Position numbers and translations under genes: made by a program. Of a DNA stretch of 48,522 nt, positions 14,954 to 19,259 are shown one piece after another (the first letter of the stretch is position 1; every line of letters begins with the position of its first letter). Source of the DNA: an uncultured Colwellia sp. GTDB taxonomy: Bacteria > Pseudomonadota > Gammaproteobacteria > Enterobacterales > Alteromonadaceae. Under the pieces are notes generated by a model. The model searched no databases, had not been told where the DNA came from, and saw only the letters and a list, made by a program, of their open reading frames with translations. Location: the NCBI GenBank assembly GCA_913057925.1, contig CAJXPG010000010.1, forward strand, positions 1 through 48,522, given 5' to 3'.

Positions 14954-16588
14954 ATGGATTTTTTACGAAAACTCACCATCCAACAAAGATTAGCCATGTT
15001 GGTGGCGTTAATCATTATCGGCTTAACAACACTTGATGGTCTTAACTTATTTGAAGAGTATAAATCACTGGTTTCGCAAAAAAAATCAACCACAAGCGAG
15101 CTAGTTAACTCAACTTACGGAATTATTGAGCACCACTATGATTTGCAACAAAAAGGTGAACTAACAAAAGAGCAAGCACAACAAAAGTCACTCAAAATAA
15201 TCTCAAACCTTCGCTACGATACCAATAACTACTTTTGGGTAAATGACTACACGCCAAATATGATCATGCATCCAATCAAGCCACAACTTAACGGTAAGAG
15301 TGTTGCCAATGTAAAGGATCCAGATGGTAAAAATCTTTTTGTTGATATGGTTAATATTACCAGGTCAAAGGGCAAAGGCTTTGTCTATTACAAATGGGCT
15401 AAGCCCGGTTTTGATGAACCTGTTGATAAGATCGGTTTTGTAAGAGGTTTTACACCATGGCAATGGATAATTGGCACTGGTACTTATCTAGACGATATTG
15501 ATGCAACCTTTGCCGAACAACGCAACAGGGTGATTCTAGATAGCATTGTTATTGCACTAATCATCGTCGGTTTAAGTTATATTATTGGTAATAGTATTTT
15601 ACTGCCAACTCGTTCAGCAGCAAACCTCATGAAGGATATTGCTCAAGGAGAAGGCGACTTAACTAATTCTCTTGATAATAGTGGTCAAGATGAAATTTCT
15701 CGATTATCTACCTACTTCAATGACTTTACTGAAAAAATGCGTCAATCATTACAAGATGTCTCGAAAAATACCGCGCAAGTATTAGAACATTCAGAAGCCG
15801 TTGCTGGTGCTAGCGACACCACTCAATCATTAATCCAAAGTCAAAATGATATTACTGCGCAAGTCGCCACGGCAATGGAACAGATGACCTCTCAAATCAA
15901 AGAAGTAAGTGACAATGCCAGCTCAGCAGAACAAGCAGCAAACGATGCCAGAAATAACACCTCTGATGGTAAACAAATCATTTCTCACACCATTACCCAA
16001 ATGCAGTCGTTATCAACAAATATTGATGATGTCAGTAACGTTGTCGCAAGCTTAGCCTCAGAAAGTGACAATATAGGCTCAGTACTCGATGTTATTCGCG
16101 GTATTGCCGAACAAACTAACTTATTGGCTCTTAATGCTGCCATTGAAGCTGCTCGCGCAGGTGAACAAGGTCGAGGTTTTGCCGTAGTTGCTGATGAAGT
16201 ACGCACACTAGCCAATAGAACAGAACAAAGCACTAATGAAATTCAACAAATGATCCAAAAATTGCAAACAGGTGCTCAAGAAGCAGTTTCAGCGGTAAAA
16301 GTCAGCCAAGATATTTCAGTTAAAACGGTTGAACAAACTACCAAAGCCGATGATTCACTTTCAGAGATTGACCGTTTGATGGAAGTGATCTCTGATATGA
16401 GCACCCAAATTGCTCGAGCTACCGAACAACAAAGCCAAGCTGCAGATGAGGTAAATCTACGTATTAATGACTTAGCAGGGATGACCGATGAGTCTTTAGC
16501 GACCACTGAGCAATTAAGTGAAACCAGTCAGAAACTGAAAGTGAGTAGTAACGGAATGTCTGAAGTTGTCGGTCGTTTTAAAATATAG
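14954..16588 (+). CDS. Methyl-accepting chemotaxis protein with single Cache domain
   Basis: A 544-residue transmembrane receptor. Helix 1 is about residues 13-30. The periplasmic domain (about 35-185) has the sCache_2 phrases [16 protein letters not shown] and [17 protein letters not shown]. Helix 2 is about 193-213, then a HAMP linker ([16 protein letters not shown]), then the signalling domain with the conserved hairpin tip [20 protein letters not shown]. It senses a small periplasmic ligand, often a carboxylic acid for this Cache class, and controls CheA and so swimming. No C-terminal CheR-binding pentapeptide is present (it ends VVGRFKI). It stands alone, with no che genes nearby. The ATG at 14954 follows GTGAGAAG. 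Confidence 0.95.
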
Positions 16589-16611: not shown

Positions 16612-16651
16612 AAAAAAACCAGTAACACTTTCATCGAGAGTGTTACTGGTT
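16612..16651 (-). terminator. Rho-independent terminator of the candidate small RNA
   Basis: AACCAGTAACACT (16617-16629) pairs with AGTGTTACTGGTT (16639-16651). On the minus strand the stem runs into seven T (16618-16612); on the plus strand it is followed by AAACCATC with no T run. It therefore terminates leftward transcription and is not simply the chemoreceptor's terminator. Confidence 0.88.
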
Positions 16652-16826
16652 AAACCATCAAAAATTTTAAAGTCGAATAGATTCCTTAGAACCTCAAAGC
16701 ACTTACCACCCCTTAACTGCAATATCAGAGTGGTACTTAGTGGTTATGTGTCCTGGAGCATAACCACTAAGTTCCGTGCTTTGCTATTGCTTATTTAGTG
16801 AGAGAGCATTCACTGCCTAAGCAACG
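16612..16826 (-). ncRNA. Candidate Fur-controlled structured small RNA, about 215 nt
   Basis: A minus-strand unit with its own promoter and terminator and no reading frame longer than a few codons. From the 5' end the RNA can form: a hairpin (TTGCTTA/TAAGCAA with inner AGTGA/TCACT, 16787-16824 region); a three-way junction closed by CAAAGCAC/GTGCTTTG (16776-16783 with 16695-16702) enclosing a perfect 14-bp hairpin (16759-16772 with 16735-16748, loop containing CTCC and AGGA) and an 8-bp hairpin (16728-16735 with 16704-16711); a U-rich stretch; and a terminator with seven T. The -10 box sits inside a near-perfect Fur box. By analogy with RyhB, PrrF and NrrF it would be made when iron is scarce and repress iron-using proteins. 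It could be a highly diverged RyhB; the only shared string is AAAGCACG, which is too short to argue homology. Confidence 0.68.
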
Positions 16827-16832
16827 AAACAA

Positions 16833-16861
16833 ATGATAATCATTCTCATTACGATAGTCAA
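16833..16861 (-). promoter_or_regulatory. Sigma-70 promoter overlapped by a near-consensus Fur box
   Basis: On the minus strand TTGACT (16861-16856) and TATCAT (16838-16833) are separated by exactly 17 bases. The plus strand at 16834-16848 reads TGATAATCATTCTCA, matching the Fur consensus TGATAATnATTATCA at all but one base. The operator covers the -10 box and most of the spacer, the classic layout for iron repression. Expected start of transcription is near 16826. The tex gene upstream ends at 16896, only 35 bases before the -35 box. Confidence 0.8.
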
Positions 16862-16895: not shown

Positions 16896-19259
16896 TTATT
16901 TCTTCAATTTGGCAAAAGCGTCAGCAAAAGCGTTACCCATAGCGGCATTTTCATGCGGTTTTTTATTCGCTTTCTTTGGCTTCCCTGCAGTTTTAGCTTG
17001 ATGAGCTTTGTTATTATTAGCCTTGGTAGACCTTTCACTAGTATTGCTTTGCTGTTGCTTATTAGTCTTAGCTGATACTTGCTCTTCTAACCGCATTGTT
17101 AAGCTAATACGTTTACGAGCAACATCAACTTCTAACACTTTAACTTTAACAATATCGCCGGCTTTGACTATTTCACGAGGATCACTAACAAACTTATCTG
17201 TGATAGAAGAAATATGCACTAAACCATCTTGATGAACACCGATATCAACAAAAGCACCAAAATTAGCAACATTAGAGACAACGCCTTCCAATATCATGCC
17301 TAGCTCTAAATCGGCCATGGTATTTACACCATCAGCAAAACTGGCGGTTTTAAATTCCGGACGAGGATCTCGGCTAGGTTTAGCTAACTCATTAATAATA
17401 TCTTTAATGGTCACTTCACCAATCGTGTCATTTATCAGTGAATTAATATTCAATGCGTTAAGTTGTTCGGCATTATTAAGCACCTGATTAACATCAAGTT
17501 TCAGTTGACTGATGATCTGCTCAACTATCGGATAACTTTCAGGATGAACAGCTGATTGATCTAATGGGTTGTCACCATCAGTAATACGCAAAAACCCTGC
17601 AGCTTGTTCAAACGCTTTAGGTCCTAAACGTGCGACTTTCTTCAGTTGTTTTCTATTACTAAAGCGTCCCTGCTCATCTCTGAAAGAGACAATATTATTT
17701 GCCATGGTTTTGTTTAGCCCTGACACGCGAGTTAACAAAGCTGCTGAAGCACTATTTAAATCAACACCTACCGCATTTACACAGTCTTCCACCACATCAT
17801 CTAGGGTTTTGCTTAGCTGACTTTGACTAACATCATGCTGATATTGGCCAACCCCAATCGCTTTCGGGTCAATTTTCACTAACTCAGCTAAAGGATCTTG
17901 TAACCGTCTGGCAATAGAGACTGCACCACGTAAAGAAACATCTAAATCAGGAAATTCATTGGCAGCAAATTCAGAAGCAGAATAAACCGAAGCGCCAGCT
18001 TCACTCACCGTCACCTTGGCTAATTGAAATTTGTCTTCCGCTGAATTTAAGCTAGTAATAAGCTCGGCAACTAACTTGTCACTTTCTCGAGAGCCTGTGC
18101 CATTGCCTATCGCAATGAGTTCAACTTTATACTGGCGTGAAATATTAGCCAAAGTTCTAATGGATTTTTCCCAATGGTTTTGTGGTGCGTGTGGGAAAAT
18201 GGTCGTGGTATGCAATAACTTACCAGTACCATCAACTATGGCAATTTTACAGCCCGTTCTAAGGCCGGGATCTAAACCTAACGTTACTTGAGGACCTGCT
18301 GGGGCAGCCATCAATACGTCTGCAAGATTATTTGAGAAGACGTCAATGGCCTGAGTTTCAGCTTGCTCGCGTAAACTAGTCAATAATTCGGTAGTTAAAC
18401 TAACATTTAGCTTGGCTTTCCAAGTTAATTGCACCACCTTTGTTAAAAACTCAGCTGCCGCTTGCTTGGTTAACCTCAAGGTTAAATGTTCACTTATAAT
18501 TTGTTCTGCACTGCTATGGCTATTACTTTCTTGCCCAGGATCGACATCAATTGATAACTGTAAGAAGCCTTCATTTCTACCGCGAAGCATTGCAAGCATT
18601 CGGTGGGAGGGGACAGATTTTAATTTTTCACTATGGTCAAAATAATCACGGTATTTTGCCGCCGCCTTATCTTGGTTTTTTACCAACTTACTAGTTAAGT
18701 GTGCTTGCTTTAATAAGTGACGGCGTAATTTTGCTAATAAATTAGCATCTTCACTAAAACGCTCAGCAAGAATATAACTAGCACCTTCAAGTACCAGCTT
18801 ACTATCAGAAAATCCCGCAGAGTCATTGATATACGCTTTCGCTTCACTTTCAGGTGATAGTTGCCAGTTATTAAACAGCTTATTAGCTAACGGTTCAATA
18901 CCTGCTTCAATGGCAATTTTACCCTTAGTTCGACGTTTGGGTTTATAAGGTAAATATAAATCTTCTAGGCGAGTTTTGTTGTCTGCTTGCAAGATAGACT
19001 GCTCTAATTCTTTAGAGAGTTTATTTTGCTGCTTAATATTCGTTAGGATAACTTGTCGGCGATCTTCTAATTCACGTAAGTAGCCCAAACGCTGCGATAA
19101 GTGTCTTAGATGATTATCATCAAGTCCTTGGGTCGCTTCTTTACGATAACGCGCGATAAAAGGCACGGTTGCGCCATCATCAAGGAGGGTAATGGCGGCA
19201 TCAATTTGTGCCAGGTTAACATTAAGTTCTTGAGCGATTTGCTCGGCAATGATTGACAT
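16896..19259 (-). CDS. tex: Tex family transcription accessory protein (YhgF)
   Basis: A 787-residue cytoplasmic nucleic-acid-binding protein. It starts with the Tex_N helical domain ([17 protein letters not shown] near residue 34), has the YqgF-like RNase H fold ([13 protein letters not shown] about residue 329), helix-hairpin-helix motifs ([17 protein letters not shown] about 508) and a C-terminal S1 RNA-binding domain ([22 protein letters not shown] about 654). A Lys/Gln/Asn-rich low-complexity tail of about 60 residues follows. Tex proteins act on transcription and ribosomes in an imperfectly known way; the Pseudomonas and Bordetella proteins are required for normal toxin gene expression. 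It lies 67 bases downstream of a diguanylate cyclase gene in the same direction and may be co-transcribed with it. Confidence 0.96.

Follow-up and report, generated by a model that had tools for sequence, protein, structure and literature searches.

A candidate Fur-repressed iron-sparing small RNA of Colwellia with near-invariant hairpin loops

Introduction

The Fur-repressed iron-sparing RNAs form a class of small regulators with members in unrelated groups of bacteria. RyhB (RF00057), which is found in enterobacteria and Vibrio, has a Fur box over its promoter and an intrinsic terminator, and a conserved, single-stranded core through which it pairs with its targets; these features are those used for comparison here. 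The Vibrio form of RyhB is similar in size to the RNA described below. According to the available part of PMC9410917, PrrF1 and PrrF2 of Pseudomonas (RF00444) are also repressed by Fur and their genes are duplicated in some species, while IsrR of the staphylococci and FsrA of Bacillus, again under Fur, direct C-rich regions that lie partly in loops against the Shine-Dalgarno sequences of iron-protein mRNAs, with nitrate respiration among their targets. For Colwellia, the genome of C. psychrerythraea 34H was used for comparison in a prediction of small RNAs in Shewanella, and the available part of that paper mentions no iron RNA of Colwellia (PMC5471319). No such Colwellia RNA was found in searches of the open-access literature.

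In this paper, we deal with a locus in a 48,522-nucleotide stretch of DNA from an uncultured Colwellia sp.; the window, as used below, is the whole of this stretch. A first-pass annotation, made from the letters alone, had proposed an iron-responsive small RNA here, and we compare the locus with its relatives across the genus and with the families named above. The reading that we consider rather probable is of a Fur-repressed, trans-acting small RNA for the iron-sparing response, one hairpin loop of which, L1, would block the translation of iron-protein mRNAs. Transcription, Fur binding, pairing and targeting in the cell, and any role for Hfq are things we infer.

The locus and its signals

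The predicted small RNA occupies positions 16612 to 16826 of the minus strand and would be about 215 nt long, with its +1 placed from the -10 element. It lies between tex, the upstream neighbor, which encodes an S1-domain RNA-binding protein (16896 to 19259, minus strand), and a convergent gene for a methyl-accepting chemotaxis protein (14954 to 16588, plus strand). The promoter (16833 to 16861, minus strand), of the sigma-70 type, is the one originally read from the sequence, with a -35 element TTGACT at 16861-16856 and a -10 element TATCAT at 16838-16833, spaced by 17 nt and agreeing with the consensus in 10 of 12 letters. TTGAC is kept in all 37 aligned copies from the genus and TATCAT in 30 of them. 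A scan of 1.1 kb found three promoter-like sites against a mean of 3.2 in shuffled sequence, which is the level of chance, so the promoter by itself is no evidence.

A candidate Fur box, TGATAATCATTCTCA, covers the -10 element at 16834-16848 (no strand assigned) with one mismatch, as had been claimed, to the 7-1-7 box TGATAATNATTATCA, which we take to be the consensus and used as the reference for motif scoring. It is the best Fur-type site of the 48.5-kb window, in which two further sites have two mismatches. Across the 37 copies the best box has 0, 1, 2, 3 and 4 mismatches in 2, 24, 7, 3 and 1 copies, respectively, that is, two or fewer in 33/37. Within the same genome, the promoter and Fur-box part of the query has a further match, which ends some 26 nt before the ORF of a TonB-dependent receptor. 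On the strength of these motifs, control of the RNA gene by Fur is likely.

The 3' end of the predicted RNA is T-rich and is formed by an intrinsic terminator (16612 to 16651, minus strand), a 13-bp stem followed by a T7 tail that, in keeping with the first description, is present on the minus strand only. Hairpin and T run stand at the same place in the aligned copies; as these were trimmed at their own T run, the run cannot be counted independently. In the window, the hairpin escaped the automatic terminator scan, probably because of an inner mismatch in its stem. The locus had also been said to lack an open frame, and indeed no ORF of at least 60 aa is present on its minus strand; stops occur in all three frames, one of which is open over the last 44 codons and into the terminator. 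A promoter of its own, a Fur box, a terminator and a non-coding body, which belong to the features of the Fur-repressed iron-sparing small RNAs, are thus all found, at the level of sequence.

The RNA is encoded on the same strand as tex and its inferred +1 lies just 70 nt past the tex stop, an arrangement that would also suit a 3' UTR or terminator region of tex that is processed into an RNA and has no Fur control of its own. This explanation is very unlikely, given the conservation of the -35 and -10 elements, the retention of the Fur box at two or fewer mismatches in nearly all copies, and the presence of one promoter per tandem copy in 11 loci.

Fold and covariation

The 250 nt of the window that include promoter and RNA fold at -85.2 kcal/mol, compared with -54.8 +/- 4.7 kcal/mol for shuffled sequences (z -6.5), and the predicted 215-nt transcript folds at -77.2 kcal/mol (z -7.15). 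The plus strand also folds strongly (z -9.2), and the strand was therefore assigned by promoter, T run and conservation rather than by folding. With the promoter scan at chance level, the terminator scan blind to the hairpin and the other strand folding as well, the case rests on comparison.

The stems of 8, 14 and 8 bp described at first pass are all present in this strongly folded stretch, the 14-bp stem being perfect, together with the 13-bp terminator-like stem. Hairpin P1 (16786 to 16825, minus strand) carries the loop L1, AUGCUCUC (16802 to 16809, minus strand), which is unchanged in 42/44 copies and is the proposed seed for the Shine-Dalgarno sites of iron-protein mRNAs. Hairpin P2 (16735 to 16772, minus strand), with 14 perfect pairs in the window, carries the loop L2, CUCCAGGACA (16749 to 16758, minus strand), whose conserved stretch YYCAGGAC is found in 44/44 copies. 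Between P2 and the terminator lies a conserved linker, UUUAAAAUUUUUGAUGG (16655 to 16671, minus strand), in which TTTTGATG is kept in 37/37 copies and TTTTGATGG in 35/37. L1 (16802-16809) and L2 (16749-16760) both start with AUGCUC, and the L1 seed may have given rise to L2 as a diverged copy.

The three-way-junction fold first attributed to the RNA holds for the window and not for the family. The third stem and the junction are due to an insertion of about 31 nt (16700 to 16730, minus strand; placement ambiguous by a few bases) that is absent from the 36 other aligned copies, so that the junction is seen in 1/37, the copy of the window itself. Across the family, the fold is made up of two hairpins whose loops hardly vary, another, short hairpin that is variable, and the terminator.

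A covariance model, R1, was built from 10 divergent copies with the window left out, and it scores the window at 86.2 bits (E 2.5e-17). In an alignment of 44 copies (43 distinct), which was fitted to the structure, 17/29 pairs have changes on both sides; the 59 doubly changed cells compare with a mean of 14.8 in shuffles, none of 500 of which reached as high, and the share of paired cells is 93.1%, falling to 27-46% on sliding. Two-sided changes in the structure-fitted alignment affect 11/12 of the lower pairs of P1 and 6/14 pairs of P2, in which 99.0% of cells are paired. Of the 12 P1 pairs, two in the upper part do not form in 29 and 33 of 43 rows, owing to an internal loop in one clade, to which the window belongs. 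An unfitted MAFFT alignment of the 10 copies, with the structure read from those same 10 sequences, gives changes on both sides in 8/29 pairs and 14 doubly changed cells against 4.3 expected. The 37-row alignment omits seven loci that are split, cut, duplicated or lacking a clear terminator (L014, L015, L017, L018, L024, L025 and L028), five of which sit in the 44-copy set while L017 and L018 do not; five more copies (L394-L398; second loci or contig ends) were scored later and enter no count.

This pattern of paired change indicates that the fold of the Colwellia RNA is under selection. That the locus is a conserved RNA gene is close to certain. A search for covariation in related genomes had been put forward as a check, with loss of promoter, stems and terminator named as the sign that the proposal was wrong; the check gave the compensatory changes just described, and all three elements are kept in related genomes.

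Distribution, neighbors and copy number

By BLAST, the RNA is present in 33/39 genomes of the genus. In a mixed sample of relatives, the matches listed for genomes of other families were short and weak (best E 6.6e-4), and several of these fell in the Fur-box part. When the two loops were searched for as a DNA pattern, 29 stretches in named genomes were picked out, 27 from Colwellia and two from Litorilituus by title. A covariance model run with strict filters over 394 genomes from the order gave three hits, all in the same genus and, by the listing, in the only three genomes of that genus in the sample; no intermediate sequences turned up in this search. On these results, the RNA has so far been found only in Colwellia-type sea bacteria.

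The neighborhood is shared, with tex, the chemotaxis-receptor gene or both adjoining 30/32 loci (one per genome, in 32 genomes). Tandem arrangements of two or three copies, with a promoter and a Fur-type box for every copy, occupy 11/32 loci within the fetched stretch. In the genome of the window the RNA is single-copy; the other matches are to its inverted arms, to short Fur-box stretches or due to chance. This bears on the suggestion, raised at the outset as a possible refutation, that the stems belong to a decayed mobile element, and on the related possibility of a palindromic repeat. The inverted repeats are indeed nested, and in two relatives the RNA is interrupted by an insertion element, but such an origin is already contradicted by the single copy, the constant neighbors, the compensatory changes and the retention of promoter and Fur box, and we give it next to no credence.

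Several individual loci depart from the common arrangement. L014 (1537-1739) and L015 (1395-1595) carry the two-hairpin module more than once within one transcript, and L014 has a third UUCAGGAC hairpin. In L017 and L018 (about 1238-1503), an insert of about 260 bp with MITE-like ends, ATACCAA and TTGGTAT, splits the RNA after its first hairpin. A divergent paralog in genome G022 (L398, 841-945) has a Fur-type box and a terminator, and both its loops are altered (GACCGCUCUC and CCUCAGAAC). What is seen in genome G027 (L387, about 286-360) beside the end of the chemotaxis-receptor gene is the RNA's conserved linker and its terminator, and promoter and hairpins were not found in the 701-base stretch; this copy looks to have been lost.

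L1 and Shine-Dalgarno sites

Two candidate targets, sdhC and sodB, were picked as classical ones ahead of inspection, whereas iscS entered only as the neighbor of iscU, and petA, nirS and ccmD were found through a search for the loop complement and so are not independent tests. The ribosome-binding site of sodB is GGAGAGYA in most genomes and complements most or all of L1. Of 29 readable sites in 30 loci, 15 form eight and 12 form seven contiguous pairs with L1 (G-U allowed), at least seven thus being reached in 27/29, and among 1120 orderings of the L1 letters only the real order scores that high against sodB. The median L1 duplexes are -12.8 kcal/mol for sodB, -12.3 for iscS and -12.1 for petA, which encodes the Rieske protein; against 298 background start sites, from genes in 400 kb of genome G036, these rank within the best 0.7%, 0.7% and 1.0%, respectively. 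When the start region is widened and 309 genes are used, the ranks are 1.0% for sodB and iscS, 1.3% for petA, 3.2% for iscU, 4.2% for petB and 28.5% for sdhC. The fit of iscU is weak (4% on the 15/30 loci that were readable, and the 3.2% just given over 30), and its site is not kept in every locus. As a target of L1, sdhC was rejected, since 30% of the background is equally strong on seven loci, and 28.5% over 30.

Within the background set, 7.0% of the 298 genes reach at least seven contiguous pairs with L1 and 1.3% (four genes) reach eight; reordered loops reach eight in 1.4 background genes on average and in seven at most, so that L1 matches start sites somewhat well in general. The Rieske gene offers pairing to the whole loop in 30/30 loci, 20 with GGAGAGUA and 10 with GGAGAGUG. 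The arrangement GGAGAGYA-N1-7-ATG occurs at 32 places in the genome of the window (two for the reversed pattern) and at 11 in G036 (none reversed), and is followed by ORFs of at least 55 aa in 22 and eight cases; the script took one ATG per site and read the two-ATG site L320 in one frame only. By Pfam, five of the 22 are related to iron, iron-sulphur or haem (Fe-SOD, Rieske, cytochrome cd1, NifU_N or IscU, and CcmD), as are three of the eight in G036 (Fe-SOD, Rieske and cytochrome cd1), and five gene types, including sodB, Rieske and cytochrome cd1, have the site in both genomes. The other 17/22 have no evident link to iron; the non-iron ORFs of the two genomes include CheB, RecD, an AcrB-type protein, a sigma factor, a Mur ligase and others, or belong to no family. 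The 17 orthologue groups of the fetched loci, a non-neutral sample since the loci were picked around iron genes, with non-Pfam names given by eye, were ranked over 300 permutations: the top six are sodB, an AhpC-like gene, iscS, petA, grxD and iscU, and ribosomal proteins, gltA, hscA, iscA and the sdh genes fall below them. Just behind the leading L1 candidates stand petB, grxD and the AhpC-like gene, which we do not put forward as targets.

The sites in sodB and petA coincide in part with the Shine-Dalgarno sequence, which would be conserved in any case. The target site is probably older than the RNA, because E. coli sodB has GGAGAGUA (duplex with L1, -11.5) and genomes without a detected copy keep the site: in the four of six that were readable for each gene, petA has GGAGAGU in 4/4 and sodB has GGAGAG in 4/4, with GGAGAGCA in three; G027, with its partial remnant of the RNA, is among these genomes. 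No compensatory change was seen in G011 and G003, in which L1 is altered and the usual sodB site is kept (L260 and L277). Outside the locus, exact 11-mer complements occur genus-wide at 42 places for L1 and at 86 for L2. Of those inspected, 40 for each loop, most lie within a coding region or opposite one, and they were set aside as targets; the genome of the window has no off-locus exact 11-mer complement of L1. In nearly all of the 29 sdhC loci shown, for example L224 (about 1440-1497), a mini-ORF (MSNNNKS, stop) and a near-invariant leader of about 60 nt precede the GTG start, possibly a separate form of leader regulation.

Silencing by the pairing of L1 with Shine-Dalgarno sequences is the best available mechanism, and an unproved one. 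In the presence of iron, Fur would cover the -10 element and the RNA would be off. In its absence, an RNA of about 160-215 nt would be made and would end at its own terminator, its two stable hairpins exposing the near-invariant loops. L1 could then form a kissing interaction with the Shine-Dalgarno region, GAGAGYA(U), and so block translation of sodB, petA, iscS, in part iscU, and perhaps the genes for cytochrome cd1 nitrite reductase and CcmD. The net effect would be that the cell saves iron by silencing proteins that use iron or assemble iron-sulphur centers. Pairing with ribosome-binding sites had in fact been foreseen for the RNA, but was placed in the loop of the 14-bp hairpin; the match is in L1, which had not been singled out. 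When the exposed loops are used for target prediction, as was then advised, L1 matches sodB, petA and iscS and not sdhC, and L2 gives no consistent best target.

L2 and the linker

The loop on the 14-bp stem had drawn attention for its CTCC and AGGA motifs. It has proved invariant over the stretch given above, while neither pairing with ribosome sites nor binding of CsrA has gained support. Against 16 orthologue groups, L2 and the linker gave no consistent best target. In one genome (L222) a complement of L2 is found 84 nt before a ccoN-like ORF, named by eye, and in several genomes GGAGCAUA, before the AhpC-like gene near sodB, complements the start of L2.

Known CsrA sponges display many GGA motifs in hairpin loops. 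The Colwellia RNA could likewise be a Fur-controlled RNA that mainly binds a protein, for example CsrA through the AGGA of L2, and that links iron starvation to carbon storage or lifestyle. Its CAGGAC, unchanged in every one of the 44 copies and presented on a long stem, would fit such a role, as would the doubling of the hairpin module in one transcript in L014 and L015, as if loop dosage counted. However, the 37-copy alignment contains just one invariant GGA per RNA, that of L2, conservation extends past the GGA, and L1 is almost equally conserved, all of which makes protein binding as the main function unlikely. Next to the iron-sparing action of L1, a more elaborate scheme with two working loops is possible, and we advance it tentatively: in a genus-restricted and independently evolved RNA, L1 would silence iron-protein mRNAs and L2 would bind another partner, either a second class of mRNA or an RNA-binding protein, with tandem copies and, in two genomes, a duplicated module to amplify the effect.

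Comparison with known RNA families

Searched against Rfam at gathering scores, the whole window gave no match, and a permissive search at the locus gave nine hits, all far below their gathering scores, among them PrrF at 16.3 bits (gathering score 90; E 2.5). The RyhB model had no hit at the locus even at E up to 5, none above its cut-off in 39 genomes of the genus, and no sub-threshold hit at the locus among those listed for the genus, in line with the first impression that a convincing RyhB core was lacking. The choice left at that stage was between a highly diverged RyhB analogue and a new class of iron-responsive RNA. The outcome is a new family with an iron-sparing reading, and not RyhB by model. 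An extremely diverged homologue of RyhB, as opposed to an independent invention, would account for the same type of regulator, the overlap in predicted targets (sodB, isc), the size close to that of the Vibrio RNA, and the lack of any other RyhB above cut-off in the 39 genomes. Besides the silence of the model, it conflicts with the position of the two best conserved stretches, which are hairpin loops and not a single-stranded, target-pairing core, and we hold it to be improbable.

On its sequence features, the Colwellia RNA is best assigned, as a new family, to the known class of Fur-repressed iron-sparing RNAs. It resembles RyhB in the Fur box over its promoter, its intrinsic terminator and its predicted action at the start regions of sodB and isc genes, and is unlike RyhB in having its seed in a closed 8-nt hairpin loop, in that sdhC is not a predicted target, and in the tandem copies of a third of its loci (11/32). 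With PrrF it would share repression by Fur and has in common the duplication of its genes, but differs in sequence and fold. With IsrR, compared by description only, and FsrA, the likeness lies in predicted Fur repression, in loops that would meet the Shine-Dalgarno sequences of iron-protein mRNAs and in having nitrate respiration among the targets, predicted ones in the case of Colwellia; however, those RNAs belong to unrelated bacteria and have other loop sequences, whereas the loop in Colwellia is CU-rich and its match extends past the core Shine-Dalgarno sequence. The invariant loops and predicted targets are directly testable, and the tandem copies provide a natural dosage series. If the reading is true, the RNA would be a Gram-negative addition to the convergent Fur-repressed iron-sparing RNAs, in marine bacteria of which 39 genomes hold no RyhB above the Rfam cut-off.
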